Source of the DNA: Acidobacteriota bacterium
Lineage (GTDB): Bacteria > Acidobacteriota > UBA890 > WLXD01
Direction of reading: 5' to 3'
Length of the DNA stretch: 64,000 nucleotides
Assembly: GCA_012103255.1 (NCBI GenBank)
Contig: WLXD01000008.1
Span: 1-64,000 of the forward strand
Shown here piece by piece: positions 12,035 to 30,592 of this stretch; the stretch's first letter is position 1, and each line of letters starts with the position of its first letter. The translations under genes and the position numbers were made by a program. The notes under the pieces were generated by a model. That model was given only the letters and a program-made list of their open reading frames with translations. It had not been told where the DNA came from and ran no database searches.

Positions 12035-12721
12035 CTACGGGCACGTCACATATTCGAACAGAAACTCCTGAGCCCAGTTCGTGTCGGCCACCAGTGCGAC
12101 CTGGCCATCACTGTGCCAGTACATGTGCTGCGCGGGCCGCCTTCCGTGCCTCAAGTACCACCCATTCGCTGTGCTCGACAGAGAACCGGCAATATCGATC
12201 GCGTCGATCTGCGTTCCGGCTGCGCCGTTCGGGGCAGTGCGATGCGAAATGACAAAGCTCCCGCGAGTGTTCTCCATGACTAGCTTGAAGTCGGAGTCAC
12301 GGACGTCCACAGCATGCCCCGACCCTGTCACTGCAGTGCTTGTTGCAAGTACGGGCGTCGGTATCTCTAGCGCGACTTGATTTGCGTCCCCCGCCAGGAT
12401 TGGAGCCCCAGTCGTGGCACCAGGGTAGTTCGCAACCAAACGAAAGATCGTGAACTCAGAGCTGTTCGGGCTCCTCACCGGTTGGGCAAGGCCCTTTCTC
12501 AGAACTCGTTGCCTCTCCACGATATACGGCTGGCTCCCCGTTCCTGGTTGTCTGATCCGTACACAGTCGCCACTGACGAGTCTCCTCGCGTTCGCGCTGA
12601 TCGTGACCTGTTGGGTGTCGGATGCGACGCTGCTACCTGTCCCGACTGCCGGATACGCGGTCGCTGAGGCTACAAGCAAGGTCGCACTGACGAATGCGGT
12701 GGCGAGCCGCCGTGTCCTCAT
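12035..12721 (-). CDS. Secreted protein of unknown function (228 aa)
   Basis: I chose the ATG at 12721, preceded by an AGGAGA ribosome site, because the protein then begins with a clean signal peptide (MRTRRLATAFVSATLLVASA, cleavage near TAYPA). The mature part contains SGDCVRIRQPGTGSQPYIVE and DSDFKLVMENTRGSFVISHR, with only two cysteines (in DCVRI and VTCP at the end). This suggests a beta-rich extracellular domain, perhaps disulphide-closed. No family recognised. It lies alone in the accessory segment, opposite to the small genes. Confidence 0.7.
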   Translation of the reverse strand: MRTRRLATAFVSATLLVASATAYPAVGTGSSVASDTQQVTISANARRLVSGDCVRIRQPGTGSQPYIVERQRVLRKGLAQPVRSPNSSEFTIFRLVANYPGATTGAPILAGDANQVALEIPTPVLATSTAVTGSGHAVDVRDSDFKLVMENTRGSFVISHRTAPNGAAGTQIDAIDIAGSLSSTANGWYLRHGRRPAQHMYWHSDGQVALVADTNWAQEFLFEYVTCP

Positions 12722-12936
12722 GGCAGGGTCTCCTGTCTGTGGGGCAAGCCGTGCGGGGACCATCTTCCTGCCAGTGTCCGTTGGCGAGGCGACCTGAGCT
12801 TGTGTTGGACCTAGGGGCTCCGCTCGGCGACGAGACTCACTGTTCGTTTCTACTAAACCGAGGCGAGCCGCAGTTTCCGAGGCTTGACCTTCAAGCACAA
12901 CGTGCTGAGGTAGTCGGGTGATCTCGGGGGTCAGTA

Positions 12937-13960: not shown

Positions 13961-15133
13961 CTACCGCTCGAAGCGCTCCATGCGCTCGACGAGCATCTGG
14001 ACTAGGCGGACCACCTGGTCCACGGAGCCGTCCGCGTAGGGGCCACTCCCGGAGCGACTGATCTTCAGTACGCCGAGGCCGCGCTGGAGGTGCGCGACCA
14101 CCATCATGTCGTTCCGGACCGAACTCTTGGATCCGGTCCAGTACATCCAACCATCGGCGATACCGCTCAGGTATTTGCCTCCGGCCGCCGGTTGCGACGA
14201 CGTGATGTCTTCGACCTCTTCTTCGTAGTATTCGACCCAGCCCTCGTGTTCCCGTAGTTCGTCGGCGTCGAAGTTGCTGGTGTCGCGGGCGAGCAGTCGC
14301 GCGAGTTCCTCTTGCGCGCGCGGGAGTCCCTCGACGCGGCGCCCCTCGCCGAAGCGCGCCTGTTTATCCTGCTCGGCGGTCACGAGATCGGCCACCTGGG
14401 CTCGACTGGGGTGAGCGGCGGCGAGCCGCTCCGCTGTGCCCGGCGCGTACAGGGTCACGTCGATCGAGAGGATATCGACGTCGACGTCGGTCCCGCCGTA
14501 CTCGTTCGTCTGCGCACCAGGGACGGTTTGCGTGCGCATGTACTCGTTGCCGAACCAGGCGACGGTGCCACAGTACATCTCGTCGAGCGCGCCGATGAAC
14601 TCCTCCTTGGTCGGATTCGCCTCGCCGATCTGCCGCGCGAACGCAGTCAGCCCCAGTGCGGTGGCAACCTGGCCGAGCCCCTCTTCATCCTGCTCGGCTC
14701 GATCCGCCGTGTCTTCCATCGAGCCAACCACCGCCGCGAAGTCCTCGTCCGAGACCAACTGAAGGGCCGTGCGGATGGCGAGGAGAGAGGTGCGAGGATC
14801 GCTCTGAACCTCACGCCACTCCTCCTCCGTGTCGAATTCCGCGAGTTCGTCCTCCCATGGCCAGATCCACCCGCCGCCAAGAACCTGATTGACCTCCTCG
14901 ATCGTCGGCAAGACGGGGCGCAGGTCCTCGTCTTCGTCACCGGCGAATAACCCGCCGATGAGACCGGTCAAGGAAAGCGAACAGGAGGGCAGGACACCCT
15001 GGGGCGCAAGGAATGGCGACCCGGTGGCGTGCGGCGGCCTGGCATTCGCCGGCGCAACGGCGATCAGTCCCACTGCGACCGAGATCGCGGCAACCCGGTC
15101 CCACCGCAGTCCTCGAGACCGTCCGTCCGCCAT
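13961..15133 (-). CDS. Secreted protein, last gene of the FHA/phosphodiesterase cluster
   Basis: A 390-residue protein from the ATG at 15133, which follows the upstream gene's stop by two bases, so the two are coupled. It begins with a signal peptide (MADGRSRGLRWDRVAAISVA, then VGLIAVAPANA). The mature part is acidic and helical (PTIEEVNQVLGGGWIWPWED, SLLAIRTALQLVSDEDFAAV), ending in a region with GWMYWTGSKSSVRNDMMVVA and a C-terminal helix LVQMLVERMERFER. No enzyme motif or known family is recognised. It probably acts in the periplasm or outside with the membrane-anchored phosphodiesterase encoded just upstream. Confidence 0.75.
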   Translation of the reverse strand: MADGRSRGLRWDRVAAISVAVGLIAVAPANARPPHATGSPFLAPQGVLPSCSLSLTGLIGGLFAGDEDEDLRPVLPTIEEVNQVLGGGWIWPWEDELAEFDTEEEWREVQSDPRTSLLAIRTALQLVSDEDFAAVVGSMEDTADRAEQDEEGLGQVATALGLTAFARQIGEANPTKEEFIGALDEMYCGTVAWFGNEYMRTQTVPGAQTNEYGGTDVDVDILSIDVTLYAPGTAERLAAAHPSRAQVADLVTAEQDKQARFGEGRRVEGLPRAQEELARLLARDTSNFDADELREHEGWVEYYEEEVEDITSSQPAAGGKYLSGIADGWMYWTGSKSSVRNDMMVVAHLQRGLGVLKISRSGSGPYADGSVDQVVRLVQMLVERMERFER

Positions 15134-15135
15134 CG

Positions 15136-18100
15136 TCACCGAGCGCAAAGGGCGCCGTTCTGCGGTGCGGCCGACGGGTCGATTGTCACCCGTGGGAGCA
15201 GCCCCCTTGGCGCCGTGTCCGACGGACCGGCGTGTACGGAGGCTCCGTGAACGGCGGCGCCGGAATGCTGCTGCGCGAGACGCGCACACCGTGCCGACAC
15301 CACGGCGTCGAACTGACGTTCGGGAGAGACCGCCACGAGCTCGAACCACTCTTCGCCTTGGCCGGAACTGCGCCCGTCTCCCGACGCCTCCCAGTAGTAG
15401 ATCCTGAGGACGTAGTACTTGACCTCGGAGGCCGTCGAGCGGTTTGCCAGAACATCTTCGATTACTAGGTCTTCAGAGAGCTCCGTTCGGGTAACGCCTA
15501 CTCGGCGCGTCTGGTAGCGGAGTACCAGCGCGGGGACATCGCGATTCCCCGGGCGAACCTTCCGCCTCATATCTATCGCACTCGCGACCAGTTCCGTGAG
15601 ACTAGGTGTTACATCGGTCGGTGCACGCCGCGTGCTGCCGACTGACTCTCCAGGGACAGCCACGGCGAGCGGCACGAGCATGTCGTTGCTCACGAGCCCG
15701 CCGTGCGCACCGGGGTCGTATGAGTGCTCGAAGAAGAAATCGGGGTATCGAGCCAGCAAGACGATGTCCCCAGAACGCGAGGAGTTCATGCCTTGTATGG
15801 CCTCTTCGATGAAGGCACGGTCCCCGGAGTCCCAGCAGTAGCGACATGAATCGGAAGGACCATCGAAAAAGACGGCGTTGCCCGCTAGGTAGCTCGACAG
15901 ATCCGTCACCTGTCCGGAATTCATGTCGTACACCTGATAGGGCCAGCTCCGGAAGGGATCGGCTGGGCCGCGAGTTTCGGGAGGAGGAGATCCGCCCTCC
16001 GGTATCCGCACGAGAATGAGATCGATCTGGGATCCCTCGGCGATGTCATGGGTGCCGGGCCACCACCAGGTGCCGCCGCGTTGGGCTTGCGTGCGCAGGT
16101 ACTCGGCGACCTCTAGTACGCGATCCGTGGACGGTGCCCCCGACCACGGCGCCCAGGTCGCTGGCCCGTCCGCGTAGGGCGGCTTGGCGCGCAAATAGAC
16201 ATGCGCCGAGCCGCCGTTGAGACCGATCACGCAGTCGCTCTCTTCGACTTTCCGCCACCCCGGTCCGTGAGAGTCGTCGCCACTGGCGATGGCTGCCATC
16301 AGTGCGGCCCGCTCTACACTGGATTCGAGGTCGCATCGGAGCGGCGAATCGCGGGGCGCTCCCGGGACCGGAGCCGGCGCCTGCTCCGTCGCGGCGCGAA
16401 CGCCGGCCCAGTAGTCCGGGACATTCGTGGTCGGTCCGAAGCCCGCTGCGCCGCCGAGATCGGCCTCGTTGATCGCCTCCGAAAGCCGCTGCACATCGGT
16501 GATGTCCACCGGATCTCGGGCAAGGAGTTCTCGGAGAGTCGGTTCCACCAGGCGTTTCACGTCCGACTGCCCGTGGTCGGCCGTGACGATCCACATCGCC
16601 TGCTTGACCATTGGCTGGCTCATGGCCATGTCGATGACCTTGCCGATCTGCGCGTCGAGCAACGGCAGGGTATCGCGATGCTTGTCGACGACCCTTCCAG
16701 GGTTCAGGTGACCACCGTGGTCCAGGCCACCGAAGTAGAAGGTTGCGGCTGCGATGCGGTGCGTCCGCAAGCCACGGAGTCCGACGTTGTCCTCCCCAGC
16801 CAGGAACTCCCCCAACTCCTGGGCCATTTCCGAGTCGTACCAGCGCGCCTCGCCGGAACGGCTCACCGCGTACGTCAACTGGTCGCCGAAGCTCGCCGGA
16901 ATCCTGTGTGTCTTGTCAACCGCGTCGCCGAAGTACATGTTGAAGGAAATCACGCTTTCCAAGCCCAGCGCCGCGACCTTGTCGTACACCGTCTTGTCCC
17001 CATCGCGAGGGTCAGGCCAAAGCACCGAGTTCGCCAGGCCGTCGCTGTCGAACGACTGCGACGGGTCGTCCTTTTCCAGGTAATTACTGGACCAGGTCGG
17101 CAAGTAGCCAGCGACACCAGTTTGCGAGAGCTGTTCGAGACTACTGCGGTGCGCGATGGCGCCGCCCCACACCGGCACTTCGTGACTCGTGAAAGCGTAT
17201 CGCCGTGGCGGATTCGCCAGCCGATCCAGCCACTCGTTCCCCGGGAAACCGTATTCAGAGGGCGTCCGACCAGTGAAGATCGCCGCATGGCCAGCAAAGG
17301 TGTACGAGGGGAACACCGTGGTAGCCCCTTTGATCGCAAGGCCGTGTTCAAAGCCGAGCGCACCCCACGATCCGACCGTCTGGTCCCCGATCGGTTTGCC
17401 GAAGAGCCCGGCCAGGGTCGGGATCTTGTCGCGCTCCCCCTGGAGCACCTCGTAGAAGACATCTTGGCGCAGGCCGTCTATATCCACCACGATCGCGAGC
17501 CTCGGTGCCACGAAGAACGCCTGCTGAACCGTGATTGGCTCATTTCCCACATAGATCGTGAGGTCCCGCCAGCCCAACTCAGCATCGTCCGGGACGAAGA
17601 CCAGGAACTTCAGTCGGTCGACCGACCGATCCACGAACCCACCGCCACGCTCCGGCATGCTGTCCGGTGTATCTCGACCGAAGACTGGCCTTCGCACCGA
17701 GCCGGCACCGGTGAACGTCGCGGCATCGGGGTAGCGGAACGCCAGCAATGTGTCGGACGCATCGATCGTGCCGGTGACGTTGTCACCGATCTCGACCCAT
17801 GCAGGCAGGGGCACCGAAAGCACCGCGACCGTTCCTCGCGGGATGCCTCGCTTCGACACGGGCACTTCGTCTGTCTTCACTTCGGCCCAGTCGAGCCGCT
17901 GGTCGCCCATCCGGACCGCCGTGAACGATGTGAAGTGCAAGGTCGGGAAGCTGATCTCGTTGCGTTCGGCATCGACCTCGCCAAGCATCGGCCGCCAGAA
18001 GCCGTCGCGCCAGTAGGCACCGGTGATGCCTTCCGCGTCGCCCTCGAACGGGATCGTCACAGTGACGGGCTGCGGAAATTCGTCGACCGCCTGATCGGTG

Positions 18101-18588
18101 GTCACCTCGATGACGGTGCCACGGACCTCCGCGTCGAAAGTCCGGAAGCCACCTGCTGCGGCTGCCGCGCGCACGACGGTTGGCTGCTCTACCGCCCCTG
18201 GCGGGAACCGGACACGGGCGCCGCTGGGATGTTCAAGTGTCCCGCCGTCCGGACCAATCGTCACCTGAACCGGGTCGGTGTACTCGAGCGAGGCCACGGT
18301 GCGGACGGACATCGTCGGGGCAGTCCAACTCTCGTCGCCGCCGGGCCAGAACCACCACGCAACGACGAGCGTCAAACTGACACCTGCGATGCCGGCCAGG
18401 ATGGCTAGTGGACTGCCAGAAACAGCCGGCAGGTTTCCCCCGCTCCCTCGATCGGCACGTCGCCCGGCGGCACGGTCGCGCGGCCCCCTGCGGGCGCGAT
18501 CCTCGCGGGCGCCGCCGCACTTAGGGCAGAACCGGACGCCGGCACGCATGGTGCTACCGCATGATCGGCAGAACACTTTGTCGCTCAT
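15136..18588 (-). CDS. Zinc-ribbon / ZU5-like / alkaline-phosphatase-superfamily phosphodiesterase, membrane anchored
   Basis: An 1150-residue fusion. The N-terminus has a zinc ribbon (CRSCG...CPKCGG, residues ~7-26), a basic linker, and one membrane helix near 65-85 (AILAGIAGVSLTLVVAWWFW). A ZU5-like domain follows (GGTLEHPSGARVRFPPGAV) with beta-rich domains after it. From about residue 370 comes a type I phosphodiesterase/nucleotide pyrophosphatase fold: metal motif LAIVVDIDGLRQD, PSYTFAGHAAIFTGRTPSEY with the nucleophile threonine, GGLDHGGH and TADHGQSD. These place the catalytic domain outside the membrane. Substrate unknown. Start chosen at MSDKVFCRSCG. Upstream lie two FHA genes on the same strand, so phospho-dependent signalling may control it. 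Confidence 0.8.
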   Translation of the reverse strand: MSDKVFCRSCGSTMRAGVRFCPKCGGAREDRARRGPRDRAAGRRADRGSGGNLPAVSGSPLAILAGIAGVSLTLVVAWWFWPGGDESWTAPTMSVRTVASLEYTDPVQVTIGPDGGTLEHPSGARVRFPPGAVEQPTVVRAAAAAGGFRTFDAEVRGTVIEVTTDQAVDEFPQPVTVTIPFEGDAEGITGAYWRDGFWRPMLGEVDAERNEISFPTLHFTSFTAVRMGDQRLDWAEVKTDEVPVSKRGIPRGTVAVLSVPLPAWVEIGDNVTGTIDASDTLLAFRYPDAATFTGAGSVRRPVFGRDTPDSMPERGGGFVDRSVDRLKFLVFVPDDAELGWRDLTIYVGNEPITVQQAFFVAPRLAIVVDIDGLRQDVFYEVLQGERDKIPTLAGLFGKPIGDQTVGSWGALGFEHGLAIKGATTVFPSYTFAGHAAIFTGRTPSEYGFPGNEWLDRLANPPRRYAFTSHEVPVWGGAIAHRSSLEQLSQTGVAGYLPTWSSNYLEKDDPSQSFDSDGLANSVLWPDPRDGDKTVYDKVAALGLESVISFNMYFGDAVDKTHRIPASFGDQLTYAVSRSGEARWYDSEMAQELGEFLAGEDNVGLRGLRTHRIAAATFYFGGLDHGGHLNPGRVVDKHRDTLPLLDAQIGKVIDMAMSQPMVKQAMWIVTADHGQSDVKRLVEPTLRELLARDPVDITDVQRLSEAINEADLGGAAGFGPTTNVPDYWAGVRAATEQAPAPVPGAPRDSPLRCDLESSVERAALMAAIASGDDSHGPGWRKVEESDCVIGLNGGSAHVYLRAKPPYADGPATWAPWSGAPSTDRVLEVAEYLRTQAQRGGTWWWPGTHDIAEGSQIDLILVRIPEGGSPPPETRGPADPFRSWPYQVYDMNSGQVTDLSSYLAGNAVFFDGPSDSCRYCWDSGDRAFIEEAIQGMNSSRSGDIVLLARYPDFFFEHSYDPGAHGGLVSNDMLVPLAVAVPGESVGSTRRAPTDVTPSLTELVASAIDMRRKVRPGNRDVPALVLRYQTRRVGVTRTELSEDLVIEDVLANRSTASEVKYYVLRIYYWEASGDGRSSGQGEEWFELVAVSPERQFDAVVSARCARLAQQHSGAAVHGASVHAGPSDTAPRGLLPRVTIDPSAAPQNGALCAR

Positions 18589-18670
18589 GATGCGTTCCTC
18601 GGCCGCTCCCGATAGCCCGCCTGACCATAGCACTGAGCCCCGCCATCGCCAACGGATACAGGGCGCGATG

Positions 18671-20353
18671 CTACTGCGCGGGACGGCCTACCACGCGGAT
18701 CTCGGTCAGCACCTGAATCGCATCTGCCCGCCCTTCAATCAAGCCGGCCCATTTTATCCGGAAGGATCGCGCCGTCAGCTCCGGGATAGGACAGGACTGC
18801 AGGCCCGGCGAGTCTTCCAAGCGACAGCGCGGGCCGCTTCCGTCCGGGAACTCGAACAGCGCCTCGCTAAGCCTCGCCCACTCCAGGAACATCGCACGCG
18901 ACGGCGCCACCGCGATCTCGATGGCCTCGATGACATACGGCCGGTCCAGCGTTAGCTCGATCCACGGCCGCACGTCGGTCTCCGACAGCCAGTACGTACT
19001 CAAGTCGCCATCGATCGCGAAAGCAGCCGGGTTAGAGGCCTGTGCCGTCGACGCAGAAATCCTCACCCCGGCGGTCAGTAGACGGCTGCCACCGGCGTCG
19101 CCACCGCGAGGCGTGACGCTGTCGGCGCCGGGATCGTTCGAATCAAAGCGTGCCCCGTCCGGCGGGACCGGCGTAACCGGATTCGCGCGTGAGTCCGATG
19201 ATCGCATCGAGCCGGCCGGTGGCACTGATTCGGTTGACTCCCGGACAACATCAGCGCGCGGATCCGCGCCTTCCTCGATGGAGTGGACGCGGTGCGACAA
19301 CTGGTAGTAGCGGTCCTGAAGTTCCGCGAAGCGTGTCCGAGCGGCGTCGACCTCGTCGCGCAGCTCGCCGGCCCGCGCCTGCGCGGCTCGGGCAACGCCA
19401 TCGATGGCCGCGACCTTACCGGCCTGCTCCTGGATGGAGGTGCTCAACGCGGCGACATCCTGACCCTGCTGCGCCTCCAGAGCCTGTAGGTCGGAACGCG
19501 CCGACGCGAGTCTCGCGTTCAGGTCGTCGAGACGCGCTCCAGTCTGGTCCGCCGCCGCCTCAAGTGCGACGACCCTCGAGTCGGTCGCCCTCATGCGGTC
19601 CTCGATCGAACGTAGTCCTTCGAGGAGACTCTCCTTATTCTGCTCCGCCAACGCGCCCACCCGACTCAGCTCGGCCTCCGCAACATCCACCTGCGCTGCG
19701 AGCACTCCAATGCGGCCATCGAGCTCCTGTCTCGACCGGGCAAGATCTCCCTGGACCGTGGCCACATCGCGCTCGAGCTCCCGGTCAGCGACCTCGAGAT
19801 CGCTGCGCAGTGTGTCGACCTGCGTTTCGAGCTGACGGGCGGCCTGTTGCATCGCGGCGTTGGTGGCGTCGATCTCATCGCCTAACCCGACCAGGCGCCC
19901 GCGGCCAACCCAGGCGAGGACGACGATCGCCACCAAGAGCGCGACGTCGAGGCCGGAAACGCCCCAGATCGTGCGTTGCCGCTCCTCCGTAATGGCGGCG
20001 GCGATCCGTGTCTCGGTCCCCGGGACATCGGCGACCGGAGCCTCCCCGGGCTCGATAGTGAAACGAACCTGTGGCCCGCCCCGGCCGAACTCTACGATGT
20101 CTCCATCACGGAGCCGGTGACGCGTGATCGGCTCGCCCGCAACGAATGTGCCGTTCGTGCTGCCGACATCGGCAAGCCAGAAAGCCCCACTATCGACGCT
20201 GATTTCGGCATGACGACCGGAGGCGACCGTGTCGTCGTCCGTATCGAGCCTCAGATCGCTGGCGGGGTCGCGGCCGATCATCACGGGACCGTTGTCGAAG
20301 TACTCGACACCACCGGCTCGACCGCCGTGTAGATGTGTCACCTTGAGATGCAT
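18671..20353 (-). CDS. FHA-domain membrane protein with coiled coil and discoidin-like C-terminus
   Basis: A 560-residue protein. Residues ~1-105 form an FHA phosphothreonine-binding domain (VMIGRDPASDLRLDTDD, SGRHAEIS, DVGSTNGTFVAG). One membrane helix follows near 150-170 (VALLVAIVVLAWVGRG). Then comes a long heptad-rich coiled coil to about 350, and a C-terminal F5/8 C (discoidin)-like beta-sandwich with NPAAFAIDGDLSTYWLSE and PWIELTLDRPYVIEAIEI. It probably links a cytoplasmic phosphoprotein to an extracellular carbohydrate or envelope ligand. It is flanked by a second FHA gene and the phosphodiesterase gene on the same strand. Confidence 0.82.
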   Translation of the reverse strand: MHLKVTHLHGGRAGGVEYFDNGPVMIGRDPASDLRLDTDDDTVASGRHAEISVDSGAFWLADVGSTNGTFVAGEPITRHRLRDGDIVEFGRGGPQVRFTIEPGEAPVADVPGTETRIAAAITEERQRTIWGVSGLDVALLVAIVVLAWVGRGRLVGLGDEIDATNAAMQQAARQLETQVDTLRSDLEVADRELERDVATVQGDLARSRQELDGRIGVLAAQVDVAEAELSRVGALAEQNKESLLEGLRSIEDRMRATDSRVVALEAAADQTGARLDDLNARLASARSDLQALEAQQGQDVAALSTSIQEQAGKVAAIDGVARAAQARAGELRDEVDAARTRFAELQDRYYQLSHRVHSIEEGADPRADVVRESTESVPPAGSMRSSDSRANPVTPVPPDGARFDSNDPGADSVTPRGGDAGGSRLLTAGVRISASTAQASNPAAFAIDGDLSTYWLSETDVRPWIELTLDRPYVIEAIEIAVAPSRAMFLEWARLSEALFEFPDGSGPRCRLEDSPGLQSCPIPELTARSFRIKWAGLIEGRADAIQVLTEIRVVGRPAQ

Positions 20354-20368
20354 GGCTTCTCCCGTCGG

Positions 20369-21695
20369 TCAGCTCAGCTCGACACGGAATCGTTGCTGTC
20401 CGATCCGGAGTCGGTCCCCGTCTTGGAGTTCGGTTTCTTTGCCCAGACGCCAGTACGTGCCGTTGCTGCTACCCAGGTCCTCGAGAAAAACGCCCGCGGC
20501 GTCCCTGCGGATCTCAGCGTGATTCGACGAAACGTACGGATCGCGGGTGAAGACGATGTCGCCCTCCGTGCGGCCGATGCGATGGTGATCGCCGTTCAGC
20601 ACGTAGCGGCTTCCTTCGATCTCATCACCGGCCAGCACGGTCAAACTGCCGATGGCGCCCGCGGCCTCCTGGCCGACGATCACAGTGTCGTCCGCGGAAC
20701 CGGCCCCCGCCTCGCCACCGTCGAGTAGGTCGAAACGCAACGCCTGTTCGCCGATCAGGAACGTAGCCCCGCCCGAGAGTTGACGGCGTTCACGTAGCCG
20801 CAGATAAACGCCGTTGCTACTACCCCGGTCCGAGACGAAAAGGCGTCCGCCGCGGTAAGACAGCCGTGCATGCCGGTTCGACAGGTAGCCGTCCGCTGGA
20901 AACTTGATATCCCCTGCCTCTCGCCCAATGTCAACCGTTGCGCTGTCGACCGGGTAGCGGTCGATCTCACTTTCGTCTTCGGCCAAACGTACCAGCACGG
21001 CGAAGCCCGCGGACGGTTTCGCGCCCAGAAGGAGTGTGCCTTCGTGCTTCGCTGGCTCGACTATCTCCGTCGGCGGGATTCCCGGACGGTCAACTTCCGC
21101 CGGGCCCGAGACATCTACAGCGGGCCGCGACTCGATCGGCGTGCCGCACTCCCCGCAGAATGCATCTCCCATCTCGGCCGGCTCACCGCATGCCGCACAC
21201 ACGAGCACATCCGCACCGGTGGACTGCGCTCCACCTGGCGACCTTGGGACCTCCGCCGCAACAGCGGGCGCGATGCGGTGGCGCGTCGCTATCGCGAGGT
21301 AGCCGGGCGCGAATGGTGTGAGCGGAGGGACCGCAATCCACCAGGGCTTGCCGCATCGATCGGCGACACCCATCCACAGCAAAACGAACATCGCGACGGG
21401 CACCAGATACGCCGCCACTCCGAACCAGAAGAGCTGGGGCGCTACGCCGGCCAGAATGCCGATCACGAACGGGACGCCCAGGATGACGAGCGTCCACCAC
21501 CAAGCGCGCTGAGCCATGCGGACGATCAACACGATATTGAGGATCGGGACCCATGCGAACCAGGTGTTCGGTTCCCCCTAGGCGGCGCGCCAGCAGGAAC
21601 GTGCACAACGAACCGTAGACGTAGAGCACAGGGACCATCACGAAGATGAACAGCGCCGTACCGAGAATCGCAGCAAGCAGTCCTTCTTGACTCAT
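20369..21695 (-). CDS. Double-FHA, zinc-ribbon membrane protein (frameshifted near the N-terminus)
   Basis: The downstream frame (to about 21530) encodes membrane helices (WWWTLVILGVPFVIGILAG), a zinc ribbon CAACGEPAEMGDAFCGECG, and two FHA domains (VDIGREAGDIKFPADGYLSN with DRGSSNGVYLR, and HRIGRTEGDIVFTRDP with DLGSSNGTYWRL). The upstream frame from the ATG at 21695 encodes the expected N-terminal helices (MSQEGLLAAILGTALFIFVM) but breaks at a run of five G (minus strand) near 21574-21578. Removing one G joins LARRLG to EPNTWFAWVPILNIVLIV as a single protein of about 440 residues. So this is one gene with a +1 indel, either real or a consensus error. It is divergent from the kinase gene, whose product may phosphorylate partners it binds. 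Confidence 0.75.
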
Positions 21696-21760
21696 GATCG
21701 CGGTAACCTACCATGCAGATCTTCCGCGCTCCACGGCCATACTCGGGGGACCGGGTCAGG

Positions 21761-23647
21761 ATGAATCACCCCAAAACCCTAGGCCGGTATGAGGTCAATC
21801 GGGTCATTGGCAAGGGCGCAATGGGGATCGTCTACGAGGGCCGCGACCCTCTGATCGGCCGCCCGGTAGCCATCAAAGTCATCCGGGGCGACGTCGATCC
21901 CTCAACCGAACTCGAGTCCCGCTTCCAGCGGGAGTTTCAGAGCGCAGGGCGCCTCTCGCACGCGAACATCGTACCGGTCTACGACGTCGGGCGAGAAGGC
22001 CGCGCCTGGTATATCGCCATGGAGCTCGTGGACGGTCGGGGGCTCGACGCCTTGCTAGCCACGGCTGCGCCTGACCACGCGACGTCACTGTCGATCCTCG
22101 CGGCCATTGCTCAAGGCCTCGACCACGCGCACGCCCAAGGCGTCGTGCACCGCGACATCAAACCGGCGAACGTACTCGTCGGTAACGACGGCGTGGTGAA
22201 GGTCACCGACTTCGGCGTGGCAAGGATCGCGGGGGCGACGGTCACGGTGGCGGGCAGTCTGCTGGGTACGCCGGCATTCATGTCTCCCGAGCAGGGTCGG
22301 GGGCTGAAGGTGACGCCGGCGTCCGACCAGTTCTCGCTGGCGGTCATGGCTTACGAACTCCTGACCGGTGAACGCCCATTCGACGGAGACACTCCATCCG
22401 CGATTCTCTACAGGATCGTTCACGAGGAACCGAGCGCCCCGACAGTCGTGGCTCCCGGGCTGGCGCAATCCGTCACCCACGCTCTTATGCGGGCGATGTC
22501 GAAACGGCCTGATCGTCGCTTCCCAAGCTGCAGCGAGTTCGTGGACACGTTGGCGAACGCGCTCGACGAGCGCAACACGTCGCCCGCGCAGCCACGACAC
22601 TCCGCGTCTGCAGCGACCGAGAGTCCGATTCGAGTTGCGGTTGCCCTGGCGGCCACAGTCGTCGTGGCGATCGCCGCGATCTGGATCGCCAACGCGTGGA
22701 ACGATCCTGTAAGCAGTGCTGGCGACCCGACCGCGACAGCGGTTGCACCGCGCGACGAAGCACCACCGCCGGCACCGCCAGACCAGTTCTCGACTGCGGG
22801 TGCCGACGCGGCGCCTACGAACGGAGCCGCGGCGCCGGCGGAAGCCGTCGCGACCGAAGACAGCGGCCGGCCAGACGGGGCGACGTCCGAAGCCGTGGAT
22901 GAGCCAGATACAGCGGTAGCGGTGACCGACGCCAGTCAAACGCCGCCGGATCCGGGTCCGGAACCGGCCGCGGAGGCCCGCGCCGTCCAGGGCACCCCGT
23001 TTCTGTTCGAGAGCTCGCCGGCCGGGGCTCTCGTTGTCGTGGATGGCTCGGAGATCGGCCGCACTCCGGTTCCCTATCCGGTCCTAGCCGGAATCCGGCA
23101 TCGCGTTTCGCTCAGCCTTCCCGGTCATCAGCCGGTGAACTGGGCGTTCAGTCCTGAGTCCCTCACGCCGGAACAAGTCGCGGACCGACGTCTGTTCTTC
23201 GCGCTAGAGCCCGTCACCCCTCCCGGAACGGTGATGGTGAACGGGACGTACGACTTCGAGGTCGAGGCCAGCGCGAACGGTCGGCGAACCCGTCGATCTC
23301 GGCACACCACGGGCGCGGCAATCGATCTTCCGCCGGGCAGCTGGACGATCAGGGTGCTCGCACCGGAGGTTTTTCTCGACCACACTTTGCGCGTGGACTT
23401 GCGATCAGGCGAAACGGCGGAGATCCCGCTTCCGTCCCTCCTGTCCGTCCGGGTCGCGGCCGCCCCCGGCAACTGCCGGGTGAACGTCAACGGAATCGAC
23501 GTGGGCGTCACGCCCCTCGAACTACCCATCGTCGCGGGGCAACACGAGTTTCTGTTCGAGTGGCCCGGACTCGGGAAGTCTATTCGCCGAAACGAGCGGC
23601 TCACGAGCCTCAACCGGAACATCTTCGCCACTGCGCCCGCGAGATAA
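21761..23647 (+). CDS. Ser/Thr protein kinase with PEGA-type extracellular repeats
   Basis: From the ATG at 21761, a 628-residue Hanks-type kinase. Glycine loop GKGAMGIVYEG, lysine in VAIKV, catalytic HRDIKPANV, metal-binding DFGVAR and the GTPAFMSPEQ activation-segment end are all present, so it should be active. A membrane helix lies near residue 290 (VAVALAATVVVAIAAIWIAN), followed by a long Pro/Ala/Asp-rich linker. Two PEGA-like beta domains follow (FESSPAGALVVVDGSEIGRT and VAAAPGNCRVNVNGIDVGVT). It is divergent from three genes encoding FHA and phosphodiesterase proteins, pointing to a kinase/FHA signalling circuit. An earlier ATG at 21713 adds 16 residues of doubtful value. Confidence 0.9.
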   Translation: MNHPKTLGRYEVNRVIGKGAMGIVYEGRDPLIGRPVAIKVIRGDVDPSTELESRFQREFQSAGRLSHANIVPVYDVGREGRAWYIAMELVDGRGLDALLATAAPDHATSLSILAAIAQGLDHAHAQGVVHRDIKPANVLVGNDGVVKVTDFGVARIAGATVTVAGSLLGTPAFMSPEQGRGLKVTPASDQFSLAVMAYELLTGERPFDGDTPSAILYRIVHEEPSAPTVVAPGLAQSVTHALMRAMSKRPDRRFPSCSEFVDTLANALDERNTSPAQPRHSASAATESPIRVAVALAATVVVAIAAIWIANAWNDPVSSAGDPTATAVAPRDEAPPPAPPDQFSTAGADAAPTNGAAAPAEAVATEDSGRPDGATSEAVDEPDTAVAVTDASQTPPDPGPEPAAEARAVQGTPFLFESSPAGALVVVDGSEIGRTPVPYPVLAGIRHRVSLSLPGHQPVNWAFSPESLTPEQVADRRLFFALEPVTPPGTVMVNGTYDFEVEASANGRRTRRSRHTTGAAIDLPPGSWTIRVLAPEVFLDHTLRVDLRSGETAEIPLPSLLSVRVAAAPGNCRVNVNGIDVGVTPLELPIVAGQHEFLFEWPGLGKSIRRNERLTSLNRNIFATAPAR

Positions 23648-27955: not shown

Positions 27956-30592
27956 TCACCCACGCAGCACGTTGACTGGGTCAACCTGGATTGCGCGACG
28001 AGCGGGGATGGCAGCGCCCCCGATGGCCGCCAGGGCCAAGGCGCCGATCGCGGCGACCAGTACGGCGGGATCCGATGAGGACGTGCCGTGCACCAGGCTC
28101 TCCATGAACCGGTAGGCGGCAGCCGTCATGCCTGCGCCGACGACGAGACCGACCGTCAGCATGGTCGCGATCTCTCGCGCAACAATCGCAACGACTCCCT
28201 CTCGGCTGGCGCCCAGCGCCCTACGCACGCCGAACTCGAAGCGGCGTTCTTGCACCCAGAGCGCCAGGACTCCGTAGAGCCCCACCGCCGCCAGCAGGAC
28301 GGCAGCCGCGGCAAATGCTCCGACCAGCGTTGCCGTGAAACGTGTCGCGGCCAGATCGTCTGCGACCAGCTCCGGCAGGGGAATCGGTTGCGCGACAAGA
28401 CCTCGCGGATCGATCTCGGCCACGGCGTCGCGTACGTGCTCGAACATCGTTGTCAGGTCGCCGGTCGTGCGCACCGCACCATAGAGCCGCGGTCCCATCG
28501 GCACCTGGAAGATCGGGTAGTACACGGTCGGATTCGCCTCGCGCGCGATCGTCGCGTGACGCATGTGCTCCACCACTCCGACGATGCGTGACCACTGGCC
28601 CTGACCACCCCACTGCGGCTGAACCCAGAGTCGCTTCCCAACTGCGTTCTCGTTGGGAAATGCGGCCGCGGCCAGATTCGCGTCGATCACAATCATGTCC
28701 GGCGACTCGGCCCCGTCGAATACCCGGCCCGCGAGAAGCGACGTGCCCATCGCGGCCAGATAGCCGGGGCTCACGAAGCGATAGTCCGCACTCGCCTGAG
28801 CGCTATCGGCCTGCATGGCTTCGGTGGCGTACGGCCCACTCCAATCGCCGCCGCGCAGCGGCATTCGCTGAGTCAGGCCCACAGCAGTTGCGTTGGGTAT
28901 GAGCTCGAGCCTTTCGCCCAACGCCCGCGCCCCCGCCGCTACCGCCGCCCCATCCGGGTAGGAGCGGGAGTCCTGATACAGGAATGTCAGAACGCCCTCG
29001 GCTTGGAACCCGGGCTCGACGCCCTGCAGCGTCGTGAAGCCTTTCAAGAGCCATCCCGCACCGGCGAGCAGCACGAGGGAAAGCGCGACCTGGGCGCCCA
29101 CCAGGGAACGTCGAACACCGTGCGAACCACGCGCGTTCACGCGATCACGAAGAACGTCCGCCGCGTCGCGACGAGCCTCGCGCAGCGCCGGGAGCATGCC
29201 CGCGAGGATCGCCGTCGAAGCAGTGGCCAACAGCGCGAAAGTCAGCACGCGAAGATCGATCTGAATGGTCTCGAGACGCGGCCAGCCAGGGGGCGCAGCG
29301 GCTCGCAGCAATTGCACTCCGAACCAGGCCGCGGCCGTTCCCAGCGCACCGCCAGCGCCGGCAAGCAGGCACGTCGTAGCGAGAGTCCGAAGAAAGGCAC
29401 TCCAGCGGCTCTCACCCATAGCCGAGCGGACTGCTGCGTCACCGCGACTCGCGAGGACCTGCGCCAACAAGATGTTGGCGATGTTTGCGCACGCAATAAG
29501 CAGCACGCAGACCACCGCACCCATCAGCGTCTGAATCGTTGGTCGAGCCTGGCCAACAACCTCGTGCAGCGCGGGTGTCAGTCGAACCCGGACTTCCGCC
29601 TCTTCGTAGGCAGGCGAAGCCTCCCTCAGCACCATGGCAAACGTCACCATTTCGGCCCGCGCCTCTTCGACGCTCACGCCCTCTGCCAGACGGCCAATGG
29701 CCTCGACCCAGTTCGCCGACCGATTGCCGCCGTCGAAATAGCCGGGCCCCACCGGTATCCACATGTCGATTCGGGTTCGCGGGCCCGCGTTGGAGTAGCC
29801 GGCGACAGTCTGCGGGTCGACGTCTGGCGGCAGAACGCCGCTGACGACGACCGTGCCCGAGCCCGCCGGAACTCGGCGACCGACGACGGTTGGGTCCGAA
29901 CCGAAATAGGTGGCCCACAGGGTGTGACTGATCACGACGTCGCCGCCAAGGCCAGTTCCCATTTCGACGTTACCGTCGGGATGCGGATTCCCGAAGTCCC
30001 CGAGATAGGGCTCGATCTGAAGGGTCGCGAAATAGTTCGTCGTGACCTGCAGCGCTTGCACCTCGACGGGCCGGCCTTCGCCAATCGCCATGGCCACGGT
30101 GCCCCAAAGCGCGGCGACACTGCTGAAGGAGCGCGCGGTGGAACCCAGGTCACGGAAGTCGCCGGCGGTGAGCGGCACGCCCTGACTGTCGTCGGTGTCC
30201 AGGGACACTCGCACGACGCGGTCGGGATCTCCGAAGGCGAGCGGCGTAAGGAGCACTCCGTCCAGCGCGGAGTAAACCGTGGTGGTCGCCGCAACCGCGA
30301 TGCCGATCGTTGCCACGATCGTGATCGAGGCGATGGGACGCCACAGCACCGAGCGCACCGCGTCGCGTATCGGAATCGCGGGCAACTCCACGCGCGCATT
30401 GGGGCTCCCGAAACGCCAGATCGTCCGCACGGCCTGCCAGCGGTACCAGCGCCGGGCGCGGGCCGGAGTGCGTTCAACCACGTAGCGTCTGAACTCCTCG
30501 TCGAGATCCCCAACGACGAACTCTCGCGCGTCGCGCGGCAGAAGGCGGCGCAAGAGAGCTCGCGTCCAGCGTGGCGGCGCGTGCCTACTCAC
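27956..30592 (-). CDS. Duplicated MacB/FtsX-type (ADOP) permease (module 2)
   Basis: An 878-residue orphan permease. A short cytoplasmic N-terminal prefix domain (RALLRRLLPRDAREFVVGDL, DEEFRRYVVERTPARARRWY) precedes the first helix (ASITIVATIGIAVAATTTVY). A periplasmic MacB-type domain follows, then an FtsX block (VVCVLLIACANIANILLAQV), a second periplasmic domain and a second FtsX block ending ARRAIQVDPVNVLRG. No ATPase is encoded nearby, as usual for this class. The GTG start at 30592 overlaps the PadR stop by 8 bases. Substrate unknown. Confidence 0.9.
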   Translation of the reverse strand: MSRHAPPRWTRALLRRLLPRDAREFVVGDLDEEFRRYVVERTPARARRWYRWQAVRTIWRFGSPNARVELPAIPIRDAVRSVLWRPIASITIVATIGIAVAATTTVYSALDGVLLTPLAFGDPDRVVRVSLDTDDSQGVPLTAGDFRDLGSTARSFSSVAALWGTVAMAIGEGRPVEVQALQVTTNYFATLQIEPYLGDFGNPHPDGNVEMGTGLGGDVVISHTLWATYFGSDPTVVGRRVPAGSGTVVVSGVLPPDVDPQTVAGYSNAGPRTRIDMWIPVGPGYFDGGNRSANWVEAIGRLAEGVSVEEARAEMVTFAMVLREASPAYEEAEVRVRLTPALHEVVGQARPTIQTLMGAVVCVLLIACANIANILLAQVLASRGDAAVRSAMGESRWSAFLRTLATTCLLAGAGGALGTAAAWFGVQLLRAAAPPGWPRLETIQIDLRVLTFALLATASTAILAGMLPALREARRDAADVLRDRVNARGSHGVRRSLVGAQVALSLVLLAGAGWLLKGFTTLQGVEPGFQAEGVLTFLYQDSRSYPDGAAVAAGARALGERLELIPNATAVGLTQRMPLRGGDWSGPYATEAMQADSAQASADYRFVSPGYLAAMGTSLLAGRVFDGAESPDMIVIDANLAAAAFPNENAVGKRLWVQPQWGGQGQWSRIVGVVEHMRHATIAREANPTVYYPIFQVPMGPRLYGAVRTTGDLTTMFEHVRDAVAEIDPRGLVAQPIPLPELVADDLAATRFTATLVGAFAAAAVLLAAVGLYGVLALWVQERRFEFGVRRALGASREGVVAIVAREIATMLTVGLVVGAGMTAAAYRFMESLVHGTSSSDPAVLVAAIGALALAAIGGAAIPARRAIQVDPVNVLRG

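Follow-up and report, generated by a model that had tools for sequence, protein, structure and literature searches.

A candidate membrane phospho-signaling module with FHA readers and a putative outer-side phosphodiesterase in an Acidobacteriota bacterium

The five-gene cluster described here belongs to a 4.8-Mb Acidobacteriota genome in nine contigs and lies in the window, that is, the stretch of 64,000 nucleotides that was analyzed. As judged by sequence, the best reading of the cluster is that of a variant of a recurrent module—an FHA protein with a transmembrane (TM) segment and an effector domain, encoded near Ser/Thr kinases—in which a discoidin domain would have been swapped in and a phosphodiesterase-type enzyme added. 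That the whole cluster is one membrane phospho-signaling module with this enzyme as its outer-side output has about an even chance of being right. The full five-gene set was found in this one genome only.

A sequence-only reading had placed a PEGA-domain kinase divergent from four co-directional genes at 13961–23647; the open reading frames show all five at the positions first given and with the range correct (Table 1). Third-position GC of 0.74–0.81 supports coding in all of them. The minus-strand quartet is compact and tightly packed, with no predicted terminators between its genes. Hydropathy indicates one TM segment each in the kinase, the FHA-discoidin protein, and the enzyme, and the 390-aa protein shows a signal-like segment. 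With the likely start of the double-FHA gene (see below), the divergent starts lie 17 bp apart, or about 66 bp if the kinase begins at M17 (about 21761), as is possible. The cluster contains no PP2C phosphatase; two PP2C matches occur elsewhere in the same genome. Directly downstream, a predicted secreted protein without Pfam match is encoded at 12035–12898 (minus strand), and at 27956–30592 (minus strand) lies an ADOP-type MacB/FtsX permease without an ATPase domain of its own, a permease type that is typical of Acidobacteriota.

Table 1. Genes of the cluster, with the basis of each assignment
Feature	Length	Coordinates	Strand	Basis
Secreted orphan	390 aa	13961..15133	-	Predicted N-terminal signal segment
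Alkaline-phosphatase-superfamily phosphodiesterase-type enzyme	1150 aa	15139..18588	-	Pfam PF01663
FHA-TM-coiled coil-discoidin protein	560 aa	18671..20353	-	Pfam, TM, motifs
Zinc-ribbon double-FHA membrane protein with multi-TM N-terminus		20369..21695	-	Pfam, frame analysis
Hanks-type Ser/Thr kinase	644 aa / 628 from M17	21713..23647	+	Pfam, motifs

The kinase has the features of a Hanks-type transmembrane Ser/Thr kinase: intact motifs, a TM segment at 308, and an outer sensor. Its cytoplasmic kinase domain (residues 26–280; Pkinase, 4e-47) is followed by the TM segment (about 308–326), an extracytoplasmic Pro/Ala-rich linker, and PEGA domains (two stretches, 7e-17), and its identity as a PEGA-domain Ser/Thr kinase holds. 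The motifs GKGAMGIVY, VAIKV, HRDIKPAN, and DFG are intact, with SPE where APE is expected.

The double-FHA protein, whose description as a zinc-ribbon membrane protein likewise stands, features two FHA domains and a zinc ribbon that is sub-threshold in Pfam; only its listed start needed correction. The true start is likely 21695 and not 21532. Frame 0 from the ATG at 21695 gives MSQEGLLAAILG...LARRLG (fuller reading MSQEGLLAAILGTALFIFVMVPVLYVYGSLCTFLLARRLG), and the next frame continues as EPNTWFAWVPILNIVLIV... (fuller reading EPNTWFAWVPILNIVLIVRMAQ...); the frame changes at a run of five G near 21574–21578, through either an indel of the assembly or a genuine frameshift. The EPNTWFAWVPILNIVLIVRMAQ frame reads as the natural continuation of the multi-TM domain. 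The simplest explanation is a surplus G (+1) in the assembly, with a genuine frameshift as the alternative; the probable indel hides about 55 N-terminal residues of the protein. The joined-frame N-terminus of 140 aa has no Pfam match. Both FHA domains carry the R/S/H/N ligand residues, and each of the three FHA domains of the cluster has the GR, S, H, and N of a phosphothreonine reader (GRD/SGRHA/STNG, GRE/SNRHA/SSNG, and GRT/SSNHA/SSNG).

The FHA-discoidin protein consists of an FHA domain (25–90), a TM segment (129–147), a coiled coil (about 160–365), and a discoidin/F5_F8 type C domain (432–555), the last matched by Pfam at 1e-7, above the cut-off; the FHA-coiled-coil-discoidin assignment of the sequence-only reading is thereby upheld. 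In a domain scan of this protein and its 19 best same-phylum relatives, nine of the 20 FHA proteins carry a trypsin-like domain and three a PrsW-family intramembrane protease domain, and discoidin, a domain of the sugar-binding type, occurs in the window's protein only. In all checked members of the trypsin group, the FHA domain comes first, the TM segment next, and the trypsin domain last. This FHA-single TM-trypsin-like family (L081 7487–8932, L088 8716–10347, L089 4565–6370, and L082 16732–18735, with further members at L108, L111–L113, and L115–L117) frequently has Ser/Thr kinases and PP2C phosphatases as neighbors in the phylum. FHA proteins with many TM segments were seen as well (L109 9297–10778, L118 9018–10577, L120 7997–9445, and L122 9143–10705).

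The proposed check on conserved gene order gave a divided answer: the order of all five genes is conserved in none of the genomes sampled, and hence the strongest version of the linked-set claim is weakened, but a core of kinase, FHA protein, and FHA-TM-effector protein recurs. In another family (G019:C91), consecutive genes encode a kinase, a zinc-ribbon-kinase-FHA protein, an FHA-TM-trypsin protein, a PP2C phosphatase, and a zinc-ribbon double-FHA protein. A paralogous locus on contig C7 of the window's own genome has a kinase divergent from a zinc-ribbon double-FHA gene, followed by a zinc-ribbon kinase and an FHA open reading frame; its double-FHA protein is 34–35% identical to that of the window over the zinc ribbon and both FHA domains. 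At this C7 locus (L016 13390–13785), the zinc-ribbon kinase frame ends beside a run of seven G and the FHA frame overlaps it, and the two correspond to one fused gene in G019 (L081 6089–7450); the split is possibly another indel or a natural one. A kinase is found near the FHA relatives at 11/23 loci versus 2/20 controls (Fisher 0.008) and a PP2C phosphatase at 5/23 versus 0/20 (Fisher 0.035), in small samples with FHA loci and controls imperfectly matched. The count covered about 9 kb on each side; the FHA loci were picked by similarity to the FHA-discoidin protein and not by kinases, the control stretches came mostly from the same genomes, and L081, L088, and L089 had been viewed before the count. 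The FHA-trypsin protein, with its TM segment between the domains, is present at 10 of the 23 loci. With PP2C at five of them, the phosphatase is not a constant feature of the recurrent module. The window's cluster shares the defining arrangement, an FHA-single TM-outer-domain protein near a kinase, with discoidin as the outer domain. The phospho-signaling set of the sequence-only reading is thus supported by relatives in which the pair of kinase and zinc-ribbon double-FHA protein and the FHA-TM-extracytoplasmic architecture recur near kinases and PP2C. Further FHA clusters, one with Tad-pilus-type genes (G003:C117) and two others (G001:C32/C187), were inspected and are non-orthologous.

The enzyme features a zinc ribbon (7–24; sub-threshold in Pfam), a TM segment (61–79), a ZU5-like region (about 105–225), and a phosphodiesterase-type domain (about 366–1010; PF01663, 7.5e-22), in agreement with the zinc-ribbon enzyme of the alkaline phosphatase superfamily described before. 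It has the nucleophile T and the two-metal ligand set of that superfamily. With the branch of PafA and the type I phosphodiesterases/nucleotide pyrophosphatases it shares the PF01663 domain, the metal ligands, and the segments of the nucleophile T430 and of N451, which align with the PafA motif segment; it differs by its TM anchor, its ZU5-like and zinc-ribbon N-terminus, its long insertions, and its length. Against the PafA equivalog model (NF042991; cut-off 650 bits) it reaches 30.7 bits, over the motif segment only. By its Pfam name the domain would be expected to act on diesters, but the solved proteins closest to it in sequence, PafA (a phosphatase) and a nucleotide pyrophosphatase/phosphodiesterase, match over short segments only, so that a preference for either mono- or diesters is possible. 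An AlphaFold model from a two-sequence alignment (pLDDT 29.7) was too poor for a fold search. The ZU5 label holds in part: the similarity is weak but reproducible, appearing independently in the window and in a distant homologue at L086; the PF00791 scores of 15.8 and 14.6 bits, respectively, lie under the cut-off of 21 bits, and the region is therefore called only ZU5-like.

Relatives of the enzyme are few. Only short domain-level matches came from the genomes of the family and order and from 396 genomes of the same phylum; a full-length scan of the genome-collection contigs gave no match, and a search of plasmids gave none either. A rescan with the catalytic segment yielded one locus, L090, in a Planctomycetota MAG, and 199 further Planctomycetota genomes returned only the same protein. 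This one full-length relative found can be aligned with the window's enzyme over the whole length (36% identity); the nucleophile and all expected metal ligands are unchanged between the two (D371, T430, D623, H627, D671, H672, and H962). The relative lacks the N-terminal zinc ribbon. Its neighbors include a TypA/BipA-like GTPase and a beta-lactamase-like protein, both named by eye from sequence; the contig ends at the gene, and the part of it that was seen has no FHA or kinase gene. The enzyme can therefore exist without the module. Within the alkaline phosphatase superfamily it belongs to a long subfamily that is rare, seen in only two phyla in this sampling. Two other candidates were set aside: an acyltransferase-phosphodiesterase-type protein (G003:C112) has only the catalytic domain in common with the enzyme, and the C7 kinase (L015) matches the enzyme only over a short TM 'FWP' segment.

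The N-terminal half of the enzyme has a relative of its own, a 765-aa protein (G067; L086 8003–10300) with an FHA domain, a zinc ribbon, a TM segment, and a ZU5-like domain, which matches enzyme residues 6–212 at 2.5e-8 in the same-phylum search and at 6e-11 in a pairwise comparison (ZU5-like regions DGGTATLNDGARVEIPPGVL versus DGGTLEHPSGARVRFPPGAV). This fusion links the N-terminal half of the enzyme to FHA proteins and suggests that its zinc ribbon, TM segment, and ZU5-like region serve as an anchor used with FHA domains, the output domain being swappable. In its outer part, the 765-aa protein has the motif HELIHH, which hints at a metallopeptidase.

The secreted 390-aa protein is present as described, coding by third-position GC and with a predicted signal-like segment; its start abuts or overlaps the stop of the enzyme gene. 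It has no match in Pfam, PDB, or PADLOC, and no homologue among the 396 same-phylum genomes but for one marginal match of 83 residues. A single-sequence AF2 model (pLDDT 38.6) was uninformative and too poor for a fold search.

The chief rival reading takes the cluster as two adjacent units: a conserved signaling core and a separately acquired pair of phosphodiesterase and secreted protein, serving nutrient scavenging or envelope turnover and inserted downstream by chance. It is a serious contender, only somewhat less likely than the single module. The core recurs without the enzyme, the only full-length relative of the enzyme has neither the zinc ribbon nor FHA or kinase neighbors on the part seen, and neither enzyme nor orphan was found in genomes of the same genus (two genomes for the enzyme), family, and order. 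Against two units stand the tight packing of the four genes without a predicted terminator, the cytoplasmic zinc ribbon of the enzyme, which resembles that of the double-FHA protein and is absent from the L090 relative, and the kinship of its zinc-ribbon-TM-ZU5-like half with the FHA-fused G067 protein. The earlier claim that the signaling set is wired to the phosphodiesterase consequently stands in part, with operon structure and one FHA-zinc-ribbon-TM-ZU5-like fusion elsewhere in its favor and the absence of the enzyme from relatives and of the module at L090 against it.

Among known systems, the cluster resembles Hanks-type kinase/PP2C/FHA sets (actinobacterial PknB-PstP-FHA; OdhI/GarA-type FHA) in its transmembrane Ser/Thr kinase, extracytoplasmic sensor repeats, and co-encoded FHA readers. 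It departs from PknB-PstP-FHA-type sets in that the kinase has PEGA and not PASTA domains, PP2C is missing from the cluster, the FHA readers are membrane proteins that bear a zinc ribbon in one case and an outer domain in the other, and an extracytoplasmic enzyme is added. The FHA-TM-trypsin/kinase/PP2C loci of the same phylum (G019:C91, G338:C150, G274:C22, and G016:C10) have in common with it an FHA-single TM-outer-domain protein adjoining kinases, and the G019 locus additionally the zinc-ribbon double-FHA protein; their outer domain is trypsin-like, whereas that of the window is discoidin, and no relative of the phosphodiesterase was found in those genomes. No published description of the FHA-TM-trypsin/kinase/PP2C module was found, within a partial coverage of the literature.

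Two further readings are far less probable. In a defense or conflict module, the kinase would trigger an extracytoplasmic effector enzyme under attack; the distribution is patchy and the kinase domain matches PADLOC kinase models (e.g., PD-T4-6 and mad6), but those models are domain-generic, the other four proteins have no meaningful defense-family match (matches to LmuB cover the coiled coil only), the outputs face outward, and no effector acts on nucleic acids, which makes this reading very improbable. Least likely of all is type VI secretion-like threonine phosphorylation of the PpkA/PppA/Fha type, or another secretion-machine regulator: the logic of kinase plus FHA protein is common to both and weak TagH/VI_FHA profile matches occur, mainly confined to the FHA domains, but TagH (TIGR03354) reaches 50.8 bits against a cut-off of 120 bits, no T6SS structural genes were seen in or around the cluster, the kinase has PEGA domains, and the FHA protein has a zinc ribbon.

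In the single-module reading, the PEGA kinase would sense an outside cue and phosphorylate threonines on cytoplasmic partners and probably on itself, and the zinc-ribbon double-FHA membrane protein would act as the phosphothreonine-reading hub. Through the FHA-discoidin protein, the state of phosphorylation would be coupled to a binding domain outside the cytoplasm. The phosphodiesterase-type enzyme, which its cytoplasmic zinc ribbon would keep close to the hub, would supply the output activity on the outer face, with the secreted 390-aa protein as its accessory or substrate-facing partner. The substrate would probably carry a phosphodiester or phosphate group, as an envelope polymer, a lipid, or a nucleotide. 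That the enzyme is wired to the kinase is our inference, and so are the phosphorylation of partners, the signal direction, the recruitment by zinc ribbon, and the enzyme substrate. A role in envelope stress or surface-glycan remodeling, as proposed in the sequence-only reading, is speculative and draws on the discoidin domain and on the location outside the cytoplasm that is predicted.

The more general point is the recurring FHA-TM-outer-effector architecture. Cytoplasmic kinase/FHA signaling might, through zinc-ribbon/FHA membrane anchors, govern exchangeable hydrolases that face outward or are embedded in the membrane (trypsin-like, PrsW, phosphodiesterase), a tentative and rather unlikely generalization; no description of such inside-out phosphothreonine control of outer hydrolases was found in the literature searched. 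If the wiring is real, bacteria would control enzymes outside the membrane in a modular fashion by cytoplasmic Ser/Thr phosphorylation, exchanging the outer domain while the FHA-TM plan stays the same, and FHA membrane proteins in phyla that are poorly cultured would gain a testable role.
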